Below, piece after piece: positions 2,080-9,592 of a stretch of 23,470 nt of DNA; the first letter of the stretch is position 1, and every line of letters starts with the position of its first letter. Under the pieces are notes generated by a model. The model was not told the DNA's origin. It was given only the letters and a program-made list of their open reading frames with translations, and did no database searches. The stretch covers positions 1 to 23,470 of IMG/VR virus record IMGVR_UViG_3300032223_002287. The stretch is one strand, 5' to 3'. The position numbers and the translations under genes are program-made. The DNA is from a virus.

Positions 2080-5000
2080 ATGGCAACAACTCAAACAAAT
2101 CAAAAAGTATTCGTATCACCGGGAGTATACACTTCAGAGACAGATTTATCATTTGTCGCACAAAGTGTTGGTGTTACTACATTAGGTCTTGTGGGTGAAA
2201 CTTTAAAAGGTCCCGCATTTGAACCAATCTTTATAACTAACTATGATGAATTCCAAGCCTTTTTTGGTGGAACGGAACCAACAAAGTTTGTTAATACACA
2301 AATACCTAAATATGAAGCCGCTTATATTGCAAAATCATATTTACAACAATCTAATCAATTATTTGTAACAAGAATATTAGGTCTATCAGGTTATGATGCC
2401 GGTCCGTCTTGGACTATCAGGGCTAATGCTAATGTTGACCCTTGTACAGTTGGTATATCAGGTAACGGAATACCTATTAGTACTCCTTTTCAATTTAGAA
2501 CTGATATTAACACATTAACAGGTTTAGGAGGACTACCATCTATTATTAGTAATAATCTAAATAAAGAATATAAATTATTTAATGGTTCAACATCAACATT
2601 AAATGATGATTTCTATGAATACATATCATACATATGTAAAGGTTCTACAGGTGCGACTCCGTATAAATCAGCAACAACTGTAATTTTTTATGGTGCTATT
2701 GCCGATTCTGATTATCAATCTATAACTTCATCTTATACTGCTCAAACTAATGTTTATGGTTCAACATCTAATGATATAACAGGTGCAACATTTACTTGTA
2801 ATATTAATGATAATGATTTAGAAGCATCTTATAACGACCCTTGGTATTATGCAAACTTTGATAATAATAATACTAACAATTATACCGGGTATTCTTTCTA
2901 TTATGTAATAACCGATTTGGTTGCAACACAAATAACAGGTGGATTTGATTTTATTGGAAATATTACAGGTAAATATTATATTTTAACCGGAGATTCTTAC
3001 ACAGATTACAATAACCTTGTAATTGCAACTTTACGTTCAAGAGGTATTTCTGAATACAATTCAACTCAACACGGACCAATTTATCAAGTTGATGATATTA
3101 ATAATGTTGTTTTAGATTGTGGTGGTCAATACAGTTGGATTAAGACAGACCCATTCTACACTTTCTTACTATCAGGAACAACTAAAGATAATGTTGATTT
3201 TTCATTTGAGACATCTTTACAACAAACAAGTAGTAAATATATTGGTAAGGTTTTAGGTGGAGATAATTTTGGTAAAACAAGAACTCAAGTTCCTTTATTT
3301 GTTGAGGAGATTTATCCGGGAGCATTAGAATACCTTTATAATAAAGGATACATTCGTGGTTTGAATTGTAATTTAGTTGCGTTAGATAGTGCAAGAAGTT
3401 TAAGTACAACATCAATTGCTTGGAATTTAGAAAAATACACAACACCTATGACTCCATTCTTGGTTTCAGAATTAAGAGGTAGTGAAGTGTTTAAATTATT
3501 TAGATTTGTTTCAATATCTGATGGTACCGCGGCAAATACTGAAATAAAAGTATCAATTACAAACATTTCATTTAACAATCAAACATTTGATGTTTTGGTT
3601 AGAAGTTTTTATGATACTGATACAACTCCGGTTGTTATTGAAAAATTCACAAATTGTAATTTAGATATTAATTCAAATAACTTTATCGCAAAGAAAATAG
3701 GTTCTGTTAACGGTGAGTTTAATTTAATATCAAAATATATAATGGTTGAGATGGCCGACGACTATCCTGCCGAAGCATTACCTTGTGGTTTTTATGGATA
3801 TACTCAAAGACAATACGAGAGTATGGATAATAAATCACCTATACCTGTTTATAAAACAAAATATAATTTTCCTGGTGAAACCATTTATAACCCTCCTTTT
3901 GGAACAACTTCAGGTGGTGATAATGTTATTTCATCCGGAGGTGATAATGTGAGAAGAACTTATTTAGGTTTTTCATCAAAATTAGGTGTGGATGATTCTT
4001 TCCTACAATATAAAGGAAAACAAAATCCGGTAACTAATTTCGCAACCGCAACAGAATCAGACCCTTGGAATTATCAAACTAGAGGTTTCCATATGGATTC
4101 AGGTGCAACTGTTATCACAATATCTAAATCTTATTCAACAAGTGGTGATGTAGCGTTTGATTGTGGTGTTGCTGCTTTCCATAGTGAACCTGAAACACAA
4201 GATAACCCATATTATAATTTATTTTCTAGAAAATTCACAGTTTGTTTCGCAGGTGGATTTGATGGTTGGGATATCTACAGAGAATATAGAACAAACCAAG
4301 ATAGATTCCAACTTGGAGGAAACGGTTATTTAGCGGGAGCTGCTCCATCCACAAGATATCCAACGGCAACCGGAGACGGAATGTTTAAGAAAATTACGGT
4401 AAATCAAAATACTGTTGATTGGGCAAATACCGACTATTACGCATATTTGTTAGGTATTAATACATTCTCAAATCCCGAATCAACAAATATTAATGTGTTT
4501 GCAACAACAGGTATAGATATGATTAATCATGATAATCTTGTTGAAGCCGCAATTAATATGGTTCAATATCAAAGAGCCGATTCAATATATATTGCAACAA
4601 CACCTGATTATCAAATGTTTACACCTGATGCTGGTGATGTAAATAACAACATATTACCAACTGAAGCGGTTGATAATTTAGACCAAACAGGAATTGATTC
4701 AAACTATACCGCAACTTACTATCCTTGGATATTAGTTAGAGATACGGTAAATAATACTCAAATATATCTTCCACCAACCGGTGAAGTTTGTAGAAACTTG
4801 GCATTAACAGATAACATCGCATTCCCTTGGTTCGCATCGGCGGGTTACACAAGAGGTCTTGTTAATTCAGTTAAAGCGAGAACAAAACTAACTCAAGAAG
4901 ATAGAGATATTCTTTATCAAGGTAGAATCAACCCAATCGCCACTTTCTCTGATGTTGGTACCGTAATTTGGGGTAATAAAACACTTCAGATTGCCGACAC

Positions 5001-5319
5001 AGCTCTTAACAGATTAAATGTTAGAAGATTGTTGTTACAAGCAAGAAAACTTATATCAGCAGTTGCGGTTAGATTATTGTTTGAACAAAACGACCAAGTT
5101 GTTAGACAACAATTCTTGGATAGTGTTAACCCAATATTAGATGCGATAAGAAGAGATAGAGGTTTATATGATTTCCGTGTTACGGTTTCTTCTTCAACTG
5201 AAGATTTGGATAGAAATACTCTTAACGGTAAAATCTATCTAAAACCAACTAGAGCACTTGAATTCATTAACATTGAGTTCTTAATTACTCCTACAGGAGC
5301 ATCATTTGAAAATATATAA
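2080..5319 (+). CDS. 18: Contractile tail sheath protein (T4 gp18-like), enlarged
   Basis: A 1079-aa sheath subunit, the outer contractile cylinder of the tail. The N-terminus has the typical opening VSPGVYTSETDLSFVAQSVG with TTLGLVGETLKGPA and a TNYDEFQAFFGGT segment. The C-terminal domain is equally characteristic: YQGRINPIATFSDVGTVIWG at about 945-965, then RLNVRRLLLQARKLIS and FEQNDQVVRQQFLDSVNPIL, ending in a beta strand region. These end domains form the sheath mesh in known sheaths. The middle (about residues 115-900) is much longer than in T4 gp18 (659 aa) and rich in Asn, Thr, Ser and Tyr, consistent with surface-exposed inserted domains. The leader has no Shine-Dalgarno. A hairpin follows 13 bases after the stop. 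Identification is firm; the role of the insertions is unknown. Confidence 0.95.
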   Translation: MATTQTNQKVFVSPGVYTSETDLSFVAQSVGVTTLGLVGETLKGPAFEPIFITNYDEFQAFFGGTEPTKFVNTQIPKYEAAYIAKSYLQQSNQLFVTRILGLSGYDAGPSWTIRANANVDPCTVGISGNGIPISTPFQFRTDINTLTGLGGLPSIISNNLNKEYKLFNGSTSTLNDDFYEYISYICKGSTGATPYKSATTVIFYGAIADSDYQSITSSYTAQTNVYGSTSNDITGATFTCNINDNDLEASYNDPWYYANFDNNNTNNYTGYSFYYVITDLVATQITGGFDFIGNITGKYYILTGDSYTDYNNLVIATLRSRGISEYNSTQHGPIYQVDDINNVVLDCGGQYSWIKTDPFYTFLLSGTTKDNVDFSFETSLQQTSSKYIGKVLGGDNFGKTRTQVPLFVEEIYPGALEYLYNKGYIRGLNCNLVALDSARSLSTTSIAWNLEKYTTPMTPFLVSELRGSEVFKLFRFVSISDGTAANTEIKVSITNISFNNQTFDVLVRSFYDTDTTPVVIEKFTNCNLDINSNNFIAKKIGSVNGEFNLISKYIMVEMADDYPAEALPCGFYGYTQRQYESMDNKSPIPVYKTKYNFPGETIYNPPFGTTSGGDNVISSGGDNVRRTYLGFSSKLGVDDSFLQYKGKQNPVTNFATATESDPWNYQTRGFHMDSGATVITISKSYSTSGDVAFDCGVAAFHSEPETQDNPYYNLFSRKFTVCFAGGFDGWDIYREYRTNQDRFQLGGNGYLAGAAPSTRYPTATGDGMFKKITVNQNTVDWANTDYYAYLLGINTFSNPESTNINVFATTGIDMINHDNLVEAAINMVQYQRADSIYIATTPDYQMFTPDAGDVNNNILPTEAVDNLDQTGIDSNYTATYYPWILVRDTVNNTQIYLPPTGEVCRNLALTDNIAFPWFASAGYTRGLVNSVKARTKLTQEDRDILYQGRINPIATFSDVGTVIWGNKTLQIADTALNRLNVRRLLLQARKLISAVAVRLLFEQNDQVVRQQFLDSVNPILDAIRRDRGLYDFRVTVSSSTEDLDRNTLNGKIYLKPTRALEFINIEFLITPTGASFENI

Positions 5320-6343: not shown

Positions 6344-6832
6344 ATGGCCGATTTATTAATGAAAATGCCCATACCGTATGAACCGAAACGTCAGAACCGA
6401 TTCATATTGAGATTTGACTCAAGTTTGGGGATAAATGAATGGTTTGTTGAAAGTACATCAAGACCACATATTCAAATTGGTGCAACTGAAATACCTTTTT
6501 TAAACACTTCTGTATGGGTTGCGGGTAGATTTAACTGGCAAACAATAAATGTTACATTTAGAGACCCAATTGGTCCTTCAGCCGCTCAAGCTCTTATGGA
6601 GTGGGTTCGTTTACACGCCGAATCAGTTACAGGTAGAATGGGATACGCCGCGGGGTATAAAAAAGATGTTGATTTAGAGATGTTGGACCCAACCGGAGTT
6701 GTAGTTGAAAAATGGATTCTTCAAGGTACATTCTTAACTGATGTTAACTTTAATACTTTGGCTTATAACCAAGATGGTTTGGCAACAATTGCGGCTACTT
6801 TAAGAATGGATAGATGTATATTGGTTTACTAA
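6344..6832 (+). CDS. 19: Tail tube protein (T4 gp19-like)
   Basis: A 162-aa protein, almost exactly the length of T4 gp19 (163 aa). It builds the inner tube through which DNA passes, stacked under the sheath. The sequence shows the usual pattern: N-terminal NRFILRFDSSLGINEWFVESTSRPHIQ, then IPFLNTSVWVAGRFNWQTINVTFRDPIGPSAAQALMEW, and a C-terminal WILQGTFLTDVNFNTLAYNQDGLATIAATLRMDRC. These are the alternating strands of the tube beta-sandwich with the conserved Asn/Asp-rich turns. The start is placed at MADLLMKMPIPYEPKRQNRF, which is typical for the family. Sheath and tube are separated by the HAD-like gene, unlike T4, where genes 18 and 19 are adjacent. The gene has its own box upstream and a strong terminator downstream, so it can be transcribed as a single-gene unit, fitting the need for high copy number. 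Confidence 0.95.
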   Translation: MADLLMKMPIPYEPKRQNRFILRFDSSLGINEWFVESTSRPHIQIGATEIPFLNTSVWVAGRFNWQTINVTFRDPIGPSAAQALMEWVRLHAESVTGRMGYAAGYKKDVDLEMLDPTGVVVEKWILQGTFLTDVNFNTLAYNQDGLATIAATLRMDRCILVY

Positions 6833-6909: not shown

Positions 6910-7653
6910 ATGGATAACGAATCAAAACAATACGGACAAGAGAATTTCACATTACCACACGATGTGGTACCATTACCTTCAGGTGGTATTTTTTATAAAA
7001 ACAAAAAATCAGCAATTAAGGTTGGATACTTAACAGCTATGGATGAGAACATCCTAATGGGTGGTGGGGATGATATAACAACAAATCTTTTAAGGTCAAA
7101 AATATATGAACCTGATATGAGGATTGATGATTTATTGGAAGGTGATGTTGAAGCGGTATTAATCTTTTTAAGAAACACGTCTTTTGGACCTGAAATGAAT
7201 GTTAAATTAAAAGACCCATCAACCGGTAAAGAATTTGAAACCCAAGTTGAATTAGATACTCTTTCAATAAAAAAAGGTCAAGAACCAAATTTGGATGGTA
7301 CATTTACTGTAATATTACCAAAATCTCAATCCACTGTTAAATTAAAACTGTTAACATACGGTGAAATTTCACAATTAAATAAAGTTTTTGATAGTTATCC
7401 AAAAGGAAGAACTGTACCGAAAGTAACATTAAAATTACAAAAACAAATTGTTGAATTAGATGGTACGAATGATTTAGGAGTAATTGCTAAATTTGTAGAA
7501 CAAATGCCAATTATGGATTCAAAGTTTATAAAAAACTTTTTAAACGAAAATGAACCAAAATTGGATTTAACTAAAGTTATTATAGCCCCATCAGGAGAAA
7601 AACTAACTGTGAATGTTGGTTTTGGGGTAGAATTCTTTCGCCCTTTCTTCTGA
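6910..7653 (+). CDS. gp26-like baseplate hub assembly protein (upstream part of a frameshift pair)
   Basis: A 247-aa protein. The N-terminus (FTLPHDVVPLPSGGIFY at 13-29, then VGYLTAMDENIL at 38-49 and TTNLLRSKIYEP) matches the layout I know for the T4 baseplate hub-assembly family that includes gp26. That family opens with 'LPS.G..Y', followed by a 'Y.TA..E.IL' motif and helices. The middle has DPSTGKEFETQVELD, a beta hairpin, and the end reads VGFGVEFFRPFF. The position between tube and tape measure fits T4 order (26-51-27-28-29). The start is immediately after a terminator T-run, leaving almost no leader, so expression probably depends on readthrough or on the variant box at 6856. The frame ends in TGA at 7651, and a +1 frame continues from there with a protein-like sequence (next entry). 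Confidence 0.65.
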   Translation: MDNESKQYGQENFTLPHDVVPLPSGGIFYKNKKSAIKVGYLTAMDENILMGGGDDITTNLLRSKIYEPDMRIDDLLEGDVEAVLIFLRNTSFGPEMNVKLKDPSTGKEFETQVELDTLSIKKGQEPNLDGTFTVILPKSQSTVKLKLLTYGEISQLNKVFDSYPKGRTVPKVTLKLQKQIVELDGTNDLGVIAKFVEQMPIMDSKFIKNFLNENEPKLDLTKVIIAPSGEKLTVNVGFGVEFFRPFF

Positions 7654-7792
7654 TTATAGAAAAGGACAATTAGATGAATTTTATTATTTAAATACCTTAT
7701 TAAAAATAACATATTCGGATTTTGAAAAAATGCCAATTTTTATCCGAAAGTATCTGTTAGATAAATGGTTAAAAGAAAATGACAGGGACTAA
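7631..7792 (+). CDS. Out-of-frame extension with no start codon; probable +1 frameshift product of the hub-assembly gene
   Basis: This frame is open from just after a TAG at 7628-7630 to TAA at 7790-7792. It is +1 relative to the gene ending at 7653. From 7652 it encodes 46 residues: DYRKGQLDEFYYLNTLLKITY, then SDFEKMPIFIRKYLLDKWLKENDRD. This is amphipathic and protein-like, and the 'MPI..RKYL..K' end resembles small tail-assembly or chaperone-type phage proteins. There is no ATG, GTG or TTG in frame before the ATG at 7730, which lies in the middle of the helix. The likeliest reading is that ribosomes shift +1 near TTC-TTC-TGA (7645-7653), giving a 293-aa fusion. In T4 the next gene after 26 is 51, so this may be a fused counterpart, but I cannot show homology. 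A sequencing error that split one gene is the main alternative. Confidence 0.55.
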   Translation, partial: NSFALSSDYRKGQLDEFYYLNTLLKITYSDFEKMPIFIRKYLLDKWLKENDRD

Positions 7793-7831: not shown

Positions 7832-9592
7832 ATGGGACCTGATGAACAATCATATAACGAACAAAGGAGGGATTTTTATAAAGGAGAAATTGCCGATGCA
7901 TTAAGTTTAAAAAATATAATCAACGATATTGATGATGCTCATTTAACTATGGAGGAAGGTGCGAGAAGATTAAATGAGGTTTTTGGTCAAAATAGGCAAC
8001 GTATAACAGAAATTACAAAGGCGGTTGCCGATGCGGTTCCGGAAATTACAAGATTGGGAGGAGATGTAAGAAATGTGTTTGATACTATGGAAGACATAAG
8101 TAGAGGAACACAAAGGAATATTGTTGCGAGTAAGGAAGATGTTAACAATTTATTTGCGGCATCTAAAATATTAGGTACTAGTGTTGACACATTAACTCAA
8201 AATTTTACTGAAGTCGGTATACAAGTCTCATCAATAGGTCCTGAATTATTAAAAGCTGTGACATCAATTGAAAATGTTGGATTGAATGTTAAACAAGTGA
8301 TGGGTGAAGTAACAAGAAATATGGATAAGTTAACAATGTATAACTTTTCTGAAGGTGTTAATGGTTTAGCAAAAATGGCTGCTCAAGCATCAATTTTTAA
8401 ATTTGATATGTCTGAAACTTTTAGAGTTGCGGATAAGGCTTTAAGACCTGACGGAGCAATTGAATTGGCATCTGCTTTCCAAAGAATGGGAGTTGCGGTA
8501 GGAGAACTTACAGACCCGTTCCAATTAATGAATATGTCATTAAATGACCCACAAGGATTACAAAAAAGTTTAAGTCAGATGACCAAACAATATGCGGAAT
8601 TTGATGAGAAAACAAAAACATTTAAAATTAATCCGGCGGGAATGTTACAAATGAGGGAGTTATCGGAGCAAACAGGTATTAGTTATAAGGCATTGGCCGA
8701 TTCGGCTTTAGCCGCAGGTAATTTAGACAGAGCGTTATCACAAACAAAAGGATTACAATTTGCTAGTGATGAAGATAAGGAGTTGTTGGGTAATATAGCA
8801 AAAATGGATGCTGGTACGGGTGAATATACGGTTAGTTTAAAAAATGAAGAGACCGGAAAAGATGAAACCATAAAATTAAGTGAATTAACAAATGACCAAC
8901 TTAAAAAACTATTAGAACAACAAAAAACCGCTCCAAAGTCTTTAGAGGAAATTTCAAAAAATAGTTTAGACACATTAAAAGATATTTTAACAAATATAAA
9001 AGCGGGTAGAGAAGGATTTATATATGGAGTAACTTCTGCAGACCAAATAAGAAATGTGTCAGAAAATTTAAATAAATTTGGTAGAGAGGTTACAGATAAA
9101 TTATCTAAATCATTACCTACAACTTCAGATGTTAGAGAAAAAACAACTTCATTAATAGATGATTTTAAAAAGGGTATACAATCTTTGTATAAAGATTATG
9201 AAGAAGGAAAATTGACAAAAGATAAATTTGAAGAGAAAGCGAGGGAGATTGAAAACAGAACAATGGAGGCAAGTAAAAAAATTGGTGAAAAATCAATGGA
9301 ATTTATAAAAAATGATGTAATAGGTACTTTTGAAGATAGATTTATGAAAAATAATCCACTTACAAGTACAAGAAGTGCTAAAGAAAAGGTTGAAGCGATA
9401 AAAAGAAGTGAAGTTGATTTAAATTTCAAAGGAGGAACAGTAACTCATAACGTAAATATAAGTCCAAATGTTGATAATGATTTTGTAAATAGATTATTTA
9501 GTAATTCCACATTTCAAAGTGCATGGATAGATTCATTGATAACCGCCGACCCGGTTACAAAAACAAAACTCAAACAAGCGTTAGGTTTTTAA
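7832..9592 (+). CDS. Tail tape-measure protein candidate (T4 gp29-like position and length)
   Basis: A 586-aa, mostly helical protein; T4 gp29, the tape measure and hub component, is 590 aa. Tape measures set tail length and sit inside the tube until infection. The N-terminal part is rich in charged helices (DALSLKNIINDIDDAHLTMEE, then FGQNRQRITEITKAVADAVPEI). The middle has a repeated alanine/glycine-rich helical region (VNGLAKMAAQASIFKFDMSETF, ELSEQTGISYKALADSALAAG), and the C-terminal third is a long Lys/Glu-rich coiled-coil-like stretch (about 395-500). The last 50 residues (FKGGTVTHNVNISPNVDNDFVNRLF) look like a separate beta-then-helix module. No membrane helix is obvious. The gene has its own box upstream and lies between the hub-assembly gene and the baseplate genes, as in T4. 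If it follows the usual 1.5 angstrom per residue, a tail near 90 nm is expected. Confidence 0.65.
   Translation: MGPDEQSYNEQRRDFYKGEIADALSLKNIINDIDDAHLTMEEGARRLNEVFGQNRQRITEITKAVADAVPEITRLGGDVRNVFDTMEDISRGTQRNIVASKEDVNNLFAASKILGTSVDTLTQNFTEVGIQVSSIGPELLKAVTSIENVGLNVKQVMGEVTRNMDKLTMYNFSEGVNGLAKMAAQASIFKFDMSETFRVADKALRPDGAIELASAFQRMGVAVGELTDPFQLMNMSLNDPQGLQKSLSQMTKQYAEFDEKTKTFKINPAGMLQMRELSEQTGISYKALADSALAAGNLDRALSQTKGLQFASDEDKELLGNIAKMDAGTGEYTVSLKNEETGKDETIKLSELTNDQLKKLLEQQKTAPKSLEEISKNSLDTLKDILTNIKAGREGFIYGVTSADQIRNVSENLNKFGREVTDKLSKSLPTTSDVREKTTSLIDDFKKGIQSLYKDYEEGKLTKDKFEEKAREIENRTMEASKKIGEKSMEFIKNDVIGTFEDRFMKNNPLTSTRSAKEKVEAIKRSEVDLNFKGGTVTHNVNISPNVDNDFVNRLFSNSTFQSAWIDSLITADPVTKTKLKQALGF

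Follow-up and report, generated by a model that had tools for sequence, protein, structure and literature searches.

The question raised by this locus is how an open reading frame (ORF) without a start codon of its own could come to be translated. Within the window, the whole 23,470-nucleotide stretch of viral DNA that was analysed, a candidate short form of a tail assembly chaperone (TAC-N) of the T4 gp26/gp51 family occupies positions 6910-7653; this and all other features described here lie on the plus strand. The ORF is read in the 0 frame for 247 amino acids, its C-terminal end reads ...VNVGFGVEFFRPFF (closing on FFRPFF), and it stops at a TGA (7651-7653) that is variable among relatives. 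The gene is flanked upstream by a tail tube protein gene (6344-6832; phrog_4542, E 4.1e-23) and downstream by a 586-amino-acid ORF (7832-9592) whose position and composition suggest a tape measure protein. Farther upstream, the tail sheath protein of 1079 amino acids (2080-5319) matches known sheaths only at about residues 787-1077, and has a very long N-terminal or inserted part.

Toward the 3' end of the chaperone gene, the +1 frame is open from 7631, directly after an in-frame TAG (7628-7630), to a TAA at 7790-7792, and its translation reads NSFALSSDYRKGQLDEFYYLNTLLKITYSDFEKMPIFIRKYLLDKWLKENDRD. The frame offers no ATG, GTG or TTG before the ATG at 7730, which falls midway through a conserved domain, confirming the claim of the first-pass annotation that the ORF is start-less. 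The -1 frame is closed at the site. That annotation had also proposed a programmed frameshift yielding a 293-residue fusion, a reading supported, as a +1 (or -2) shift, by the retention of the frame change among relatives. It counted the extension as 46 residues following the TGA; the domain itself stands, but not its start at 7652, as the translated +1 segment most likely begins at 7640 and comprises 50 amino acids and the TAA stop (ALSSDYRKG...KENDRD, 7640-7792).

Conservation of the frame change

In a first scan, all 37 relatives, 55-79% identical, carried an identical frame change. The principal count covers 160 distinct loci or 3' ends found with queries or seed patterns that omit the shift region. 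In 158 of these, far more than chance would give, the end of the 0 frame and UUU_C precede a +1 extension of 40 amino acids or more, and the remaining two loci are cut off by contig ends. The +1 translation is conserved as a protein with the pattern xLSS[DNE]Y..MP..R+Y. The alignment with relatives suggested by the first-pass annotation finds both the frame change and the extension to be conserved. A further scan with the 15-mer TTTCGNCCTTTCTTC returned sequences that encode this gene in 109 of 120 cases among the matches listed; being selected on the motif, they are excluded from the 160-locus counts and included in the sets of 120 and 176 sequences used below.

The proposed slip site and its alternatives

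From 7631 to the stop, the 0-frame codons of the window are TTC, TTT, CGC, CCT, TTC and TTC, of which TTT alone re-pairs well at +1 (UUC). The proposed P-site codon is thus UUU at 7636-7638, within the slip site UUU_C, and the A-site codon is CGC at 7639-7641, with base 7639 skipped in the proposal. TTT is found in 120/120 non-redundant sequences, while UUU_C, and hence UUU followed by a pyrimidine, stands at the frame change in all 160 of the distinct loci collected without selection on the motif. In bacteria, UUU_Y is known as a tetranucleotide prone to +1 slips (PMC5009743). The earlier remark that the site matches no classical slippery sequence consequently holds for -1 heptamers, but not for +1 shifts. 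The A-site codon across the 160 loci is CGC (61), CGT (53), CGG (42), CTC (2) or CGA (2). Such codons are rare: the CGC at the site is the only one among the 7233 codons of the window, CGG is absent from them, and within the clade CGC and CGG make up 0.5% and 0.3% of Arg codons. Part of the preference for CGN could also be caused by the overlapping +1 codon, GNC, which encodes Ala, Val or Gly.

The nine bases that follow, CCT TTC TTC (7642-7650), are dual-coding, being read as Pro-Phe-Phe (0 frame) and as Leu-Ser-Ser (+1 frame). All nine are invariant in 120/120 sequences, a figure somewhat overstated because the set was partly found through the motif, and the wobble bases are fixed because they are read in both frames. 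Elsewhere in the gene, TTC accounts for 20% of Phe codons and CCT for about 33% of Pro codons. In the wider survey there are a few variants, such as CGG GTT TTC, and these retain UUU_CGN. Among the 120 non-redundant sequences the variable position is the third base of the 0-frame codon up to the site and the third base of the +1-frame codon after the 0-frame stop. Since LSS is conserved as protein and its wobble bases are fixed, the +1 frame must be read upstream of TTC-TTC-TGA. On this comparative evidence the slip would be placed at UUU_CGC, 12 nucleotides upstream of the site favored by the first-pass annotation, and from the pattern of conservation we strongly infer a +1 frameshift there.

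A -2 slip of tRNA-Phe on the same Phe codons would lead to an identical final frame with one extra Phe at the junction, and the TTT TTT of most relatives permits re-pairing at -2. There is also a precedent in the gpGT gene of phage Mu, which uses a -2 shift (PMC3498833). However, the site reads TTC TTT in the window and in 7 further non-redundant sequences, where a -2 slip would land on UCU, and their T run of only 3 argues against this kind of slip. Together with UUU_Y, a rare A-site codon and an upstream duplex, all of which favor +1, this makes a -2 slip improbable.

A second alternative is that the extension is produced as a separate peptide by re-initiation, much as T4 has two genes. Some relatives do have an ATG, GTG or TTG upstream in the +1 frame; yet the window has no start codon ahead of the domain core, ATG is absent there from 91 of 176 relatives, and 12 of the 176 lack all three start codons. 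There is consequently only a slim chance that re-initiation accounts for the extension.

The first-pass annotation had itself envisaged a shift at TTC-TTC-TGA, analogous in position to that of prfB. In this RF2-like alternative, slow termination at UGA would stimulate the +1 slip. Stop codons do promote the +1 slips of prfB, and TTC-TTC is followed by a stop in 127/160 loci, but a sense codon replaces that stop in the other 33. In addition, tRNA-Phe on UUC would re-pair poorly on UCU or UCG, and the conserved LSS with the fixed wobble bases of CCT TTC TTC requires that the +1 frame has been entered earlier. The RF2-like proposal is therefore abandoned as very improbable.

RNA polymerase slippage on the T run, which would create a mixed mRNA population, might be entertained for most relatives, as they contain TTTTTTC; it is nevertheless highly unlikely, given that the frame change is kept where the run is only 3 T (the window and the same 7 sequences) and that slippage leaves both the rare CGN codon and the hairpin described below unexplained. 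Lastly, although a single-base change would restore one continuous frame, an artefact of sequencing or assembly, or decay of the gene, has a negligible probability and is refuted by conservation, as judged by the recurrence of the frame change in independent assemblies of 158 of the 160 distinct loci and by protein-level conservation on both sides of the junction.

An upstream hairpin

Immediately upstream of the +1 site, comparison of relatives reveals a hairpin spanning 7585-7628. Its outer stem is formed by a 5' arm, GCCCCA (7585-7590, or -51 to -46 from the P-site UUU), and a 3' arm, UGGGGU (7623-7628), that ends 7 nucleotides before the P-site UUU; it displays covariation and compensatory changes on the tree. 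Between the stems lies a sequence-conserved bulge of 9 nucleotides, UCAGGAGAA (7591-7599), containing a Shine-Dalgarno-like AGGAG. The inner stem (7600-7608 with 7614-7622) encloses a loop of 5 nucleotides and shows compensatory changes in 5 of its 9 pairs, with 71.9% of cells paired. Besides the overlap codons, the hairpin codons are under the strongest synonymous constraint in the gene, as illustrated by GGG at -12 in 116/120 sequences (background 10%) and GGA at -42 in 117/120 (background 32%).

Folding and covariation analyses agree with this structure. The region from -54 to -6 has a mean minimum free energy (MFE) of -14.3 kcal/mol and a z of -2.6 against synonymous recodings, negative in all 60 sampled sequences, compared with z of -0.06 to -0.40 in six other windows of the gene. 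In 60 sequences, 80.2% of cells are paired, against 71.8% after shuffling and 37-58% in slid controls. Changes on both sides of a pair number 84 where 40 are expected, and none of 500 shuffles matched either the pairing or the double changes. On a protein tree built without the hairpin region, pair-preserving double changes amount to 13 for the outer stem (slid controls 1-5) and 46 for the inner stem (slid controls 7-34), counts that depend on parsimony and include one slid inner control that reaches 34. The outer stem is well kept, with at least 5 of 6 pairs in 166 of 176 sequences; the inner stem is looser, with at most 4 of 9 pairs in 25 of 176.

A covariance model of the element found one strong copy in each relative genome, at the chaperone gene; the sole second match, in genome G014, is weak (E 7.6e-4). 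Within the window, 7579-7659 is the only strong match. The model had no match in P-SSM2, Syn9, RM378, KVP40, Mel-JY01 or BRock, and the hairpin is inconsistent in distant +1 members (the LR756508 group, Mel-JY01 and SP-15). Since the hairpin is missing from the more distant +1 members, it would be at most a clade-specific stimulator. No Rfam family was matched by the element, the single match being on the other strand and attributable to chance (E 0.54), and RNAalifold detected no conserved structure downstream of the site. A candidate second stem of pseudoknot type, pairing UCAGGAGAA with UUCUUCUGA across the site, receives no support from covariation.

Hairpins positioned upstream, adjacent to the E site, promote +1 shifting by 70S ribosomes in vitro and mimic an internal Shine-Dalgarno duplex (PMC6321510). 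By analogy, the hairpin is likely a +1 stimulator. The bulge, with its AGGAG core, may be a contact for RNA or the ribosome in a window where 0 of 13 gene starts is Shine-Dalgarno-like; a role in pairing with the anti-Shine-Dalgarno is speculation.

A mechanism can be proposed on this basis. With peptidyl-tRNA-Phe on UUU (7636-7638), the ribosome would wait at the very rare CGC, and the hairpin (7585-7628) would refold behind it and favor a forward slip of one base. tRNA-Phe would move from UUU to UUC with base 7639 skipped, and translation would continue past the slip as ...FGVEFF|ALSSDYRKG... to the TAA at 7790. The junction peptide expected from this route is ...FGVEFFALSSDYR.

Probable identity of the short and long proteins

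The core ORF matches PF12322 (T4_baseplate) with an E of 9.6e-7 and 29.1 bits, above the curated cut-off of 24.5. The match to phrog_150 improves from E 3e-12 for the core alone to 4.8e-14 when the extension is included (from 47.6 bits to 53.4), and the aligned region then runs on into the added residues. AlphaFold was applied to the core and the extension one at a time. The core model (pLDDT 86) resembles predicted T4-like gp26-type proteins, and its best PDB counterparts by VIA-align are YqbN (3klu, Z 5.5) and the tail assembly chaperone (TAC) of HK97 (2ob9, Z 5.2), the next unrelated row having a Z of 2.6. These matches agree with a TAC fold for the modelled core, although a Z of about 5 is by itself modest, and plain Foldseek of the core against the PDB gave nothing significant. 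By fold, the core is also matched by BFVD entry A0A5S9C0Y7 from Tenacibaculum phage PTm1, a cultured phage of Bacteroidota; the sequence search with PTm1 gave no match and is uninformative.

Turning to the extension, its model consists of three helices (pLDDT 91). Searched alone against BFVD, it retrieved only non-significant matches, of which some carry the name tail assembly chaperone (E 2.3 and 7.2). Its profile aligns with gp51-type extensions in hhalign at E 1.4e-4, with a probability of only 52%, and 7 of 43 fused relatives match phrog_634, the 'baseplate hub assembly catalyst' family of the gp51 C-terminus. For the downstream 586-residue ORF, profile searches returned no family match; its positional counterpart in Mel-JY01, located two small ORFs downstream, matches tape-measure PHROGs. 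The ORF is a probable tape measure protein.

As read from the sequence, the product of the locus is very probably the tail assembly chaperone of a T4-like myophage, expressed as TAC-N (247 amino acids) and, by a programmed +1 shift, TAC-NC (293 amino acids). Like gpG and gpGT of λ, the two would load the tape measure with tail tube subunits.

Probable shift direction in the T4-like family

In T4, the short and long forms are two genes on opposite strands, and both gp26 and gp51 match PF12322 and phrog_150. Their shared membership in PF12322, the reach of phrog_150 into the extension and the matches to phrog_634 together suggest that gp51 is the long form and gp26 a short form. The first-pass annotation had related the extension to T4 gene 51; this kinship is upheld, but its picture of gp51 as a separate partner of gp26 that is fused here is not, as both are PF12322 members and gp51 is the counterpart of the long form.

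A start-less +1 extension after UUU_Y occurs also in SP-15, BRock, RM378, Mel-JY01, and LR756508 and its relatives, although in BRock and RM378 the extension has diverged too far to be matched securely to the clade extension profile. At the same Phe-Phe codons, P-SSM2, Syn9, HTVC008M, KVP40, phiM12 and Cr30 have a -1-frame extension, and so does XacN1. In the former six the codons are poly-T and the extension is the gp51-type C-terminal domain; what is catalogued as phrog_634 may be the C-terminal part of a chaperone made by frameshifting. In Xanthomonas phage XacN1 (locus L161, 3738-3998), the gene annotated 'baseplate hub subunit' has a run of seven T and a long -1 extension that is partly annotated as ORF316; it is probably a -1 frameshifted chaperone. 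Two loci of the LR756508 group (L174 and L180) have no UUU_Y and carry the extension in the -1 frame, suggesting that shift direction changed within that group.

Hosts

The hosts may be Bacteroidota. Shine-Dalgarno-like motifs are missing from all 13 gene starts of the window; this resembles Bacteroidota, in which the ribosome occludes the anti-Shine-Dalgarno (PMC9976891). A bS21 gene is present in 6 of 14 long relative records (G003, G004, G005, G009, G012 and G015), and lake myoviruses with bS21 infect Bacteroidota (PMC9723584). A scan of GTDB for hosts gave a single remote locus. The hairpin could be an intramolecular stand-in for the duplex of Shine-Dalgarno and anti-Shine-Dalgarno, driving +1 at UUU_CGN in (probably Bacteroidota) hosts that hide the anti-Shine-Dalgarno, while T4-type chaperones switched, at the same Phe-Phe codons, among -1, +1 and gene duplication; we lean only slightly toward this combined view. 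Since Bacteroidia retain the prfB site with its Shine-Dalgarno (PMC8710568), the idea that the hairpin replaces an rRNA-mRNA duplex in such hosts is speculation.

Comparison with known systems

For T4-like phages, Vladimirov et al. in 2022 reportedly proposed a mechanism other than frameshifting. Frameshifted tail chaperones are well known, including +1 cases in HSTV-2 (PMC5009743) and in SEA-PHAGES annotations (PMC10274946), with T4 singled out as the exception ('except T4'; PMC5009743). PMC10274946 and PMC12846349 cite Vladimirov et al. 2022 for gp26 and gp51 as the TACs of T4-like phages, and PMC12846349 ascribes poly-T -1 signals to TAC-N genes of these phages, citing the same study. No report of the +1 site or the hairpin was found in the literature searched, which is not proof of absence.

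Taken together, a sizeable group among the T4-like phages seems to frameshift, and to do so in the forward direction, with a signal that recurs in hundreds of related viruses and differs from the frameshift signals known in tail chaperone genes. With the short and long forms related by a frame change, one gene should yield both TAC-N of 247 and TAC-NC of 293 amino acids, where T4 uses two genes and cyanophages a -1 shift. As one pair of Phe codons is used for -1 in cyanophages and for +1 here, the evolutionary route to the two-gene solution of T4 may be traceable. The hairpin would offer a natural test case for the notion that the ribosome can be driven forward by a duplex in its wake, so far based on synthetic constructs on 70S ribosomes (PMC6321510). 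On a practical note, ordinary ORF calling misses the extension domain.

The arrangement closely parallels gpG/gpGT of λ: the gene has the tail tube gene on one side and the (probable) tape measure gene on the other, and a short form would be accompanied by a rarer long form through a frameshift near the 3' end. It differs in that the shift would be +1 rather than -1, without an X_XXY_YYZ heptamer, with an upstream hairpin and in the PF12322 family. T4 gp26/gp51 belong to the same family, and the extension resembles the C-terminus of gp51, but T4 has two genes in place of one gene and a frame change. The gp26-like genes of Kyanoviridae, KVP40, phiM12 and Cr30 likewise hold the extension (phrog_634) out of frame after the same Phe-Phe codons; theirs, however, would be a -1 shift at poly-U, and the hairpin model was unmatched in the three that were searched (P-SSM2, Syn9 and KVP40).

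Outside of tail genes, the PA-X site of influenza A, UCC_UUU_CGU, shares the P-site UUU_C and a CGN codon in the A site. UUU_CGU is the proven +1 site of PA-X, and the existence of a whole class of sites of this type was predicted in the same study (PMC3498833). The virus and the ribosome are unrelated and there is no evident stimulatory structure at PA-X (PMC5009743), in contrast to the conserved 5' hairpin found here; the likeness is convergent. Finally, prfB, with CUU_UGA and an internal Shine-Dalgarno, also combines a +1 slip with a duplex immediately 5' of the codon at which the slip occurs. In the chaperone gene, the duplex would form within the mRNA and not between mRNA and rRNA, no stop codon would be needed, and the spacer is 7 nucleotides instead of 3.
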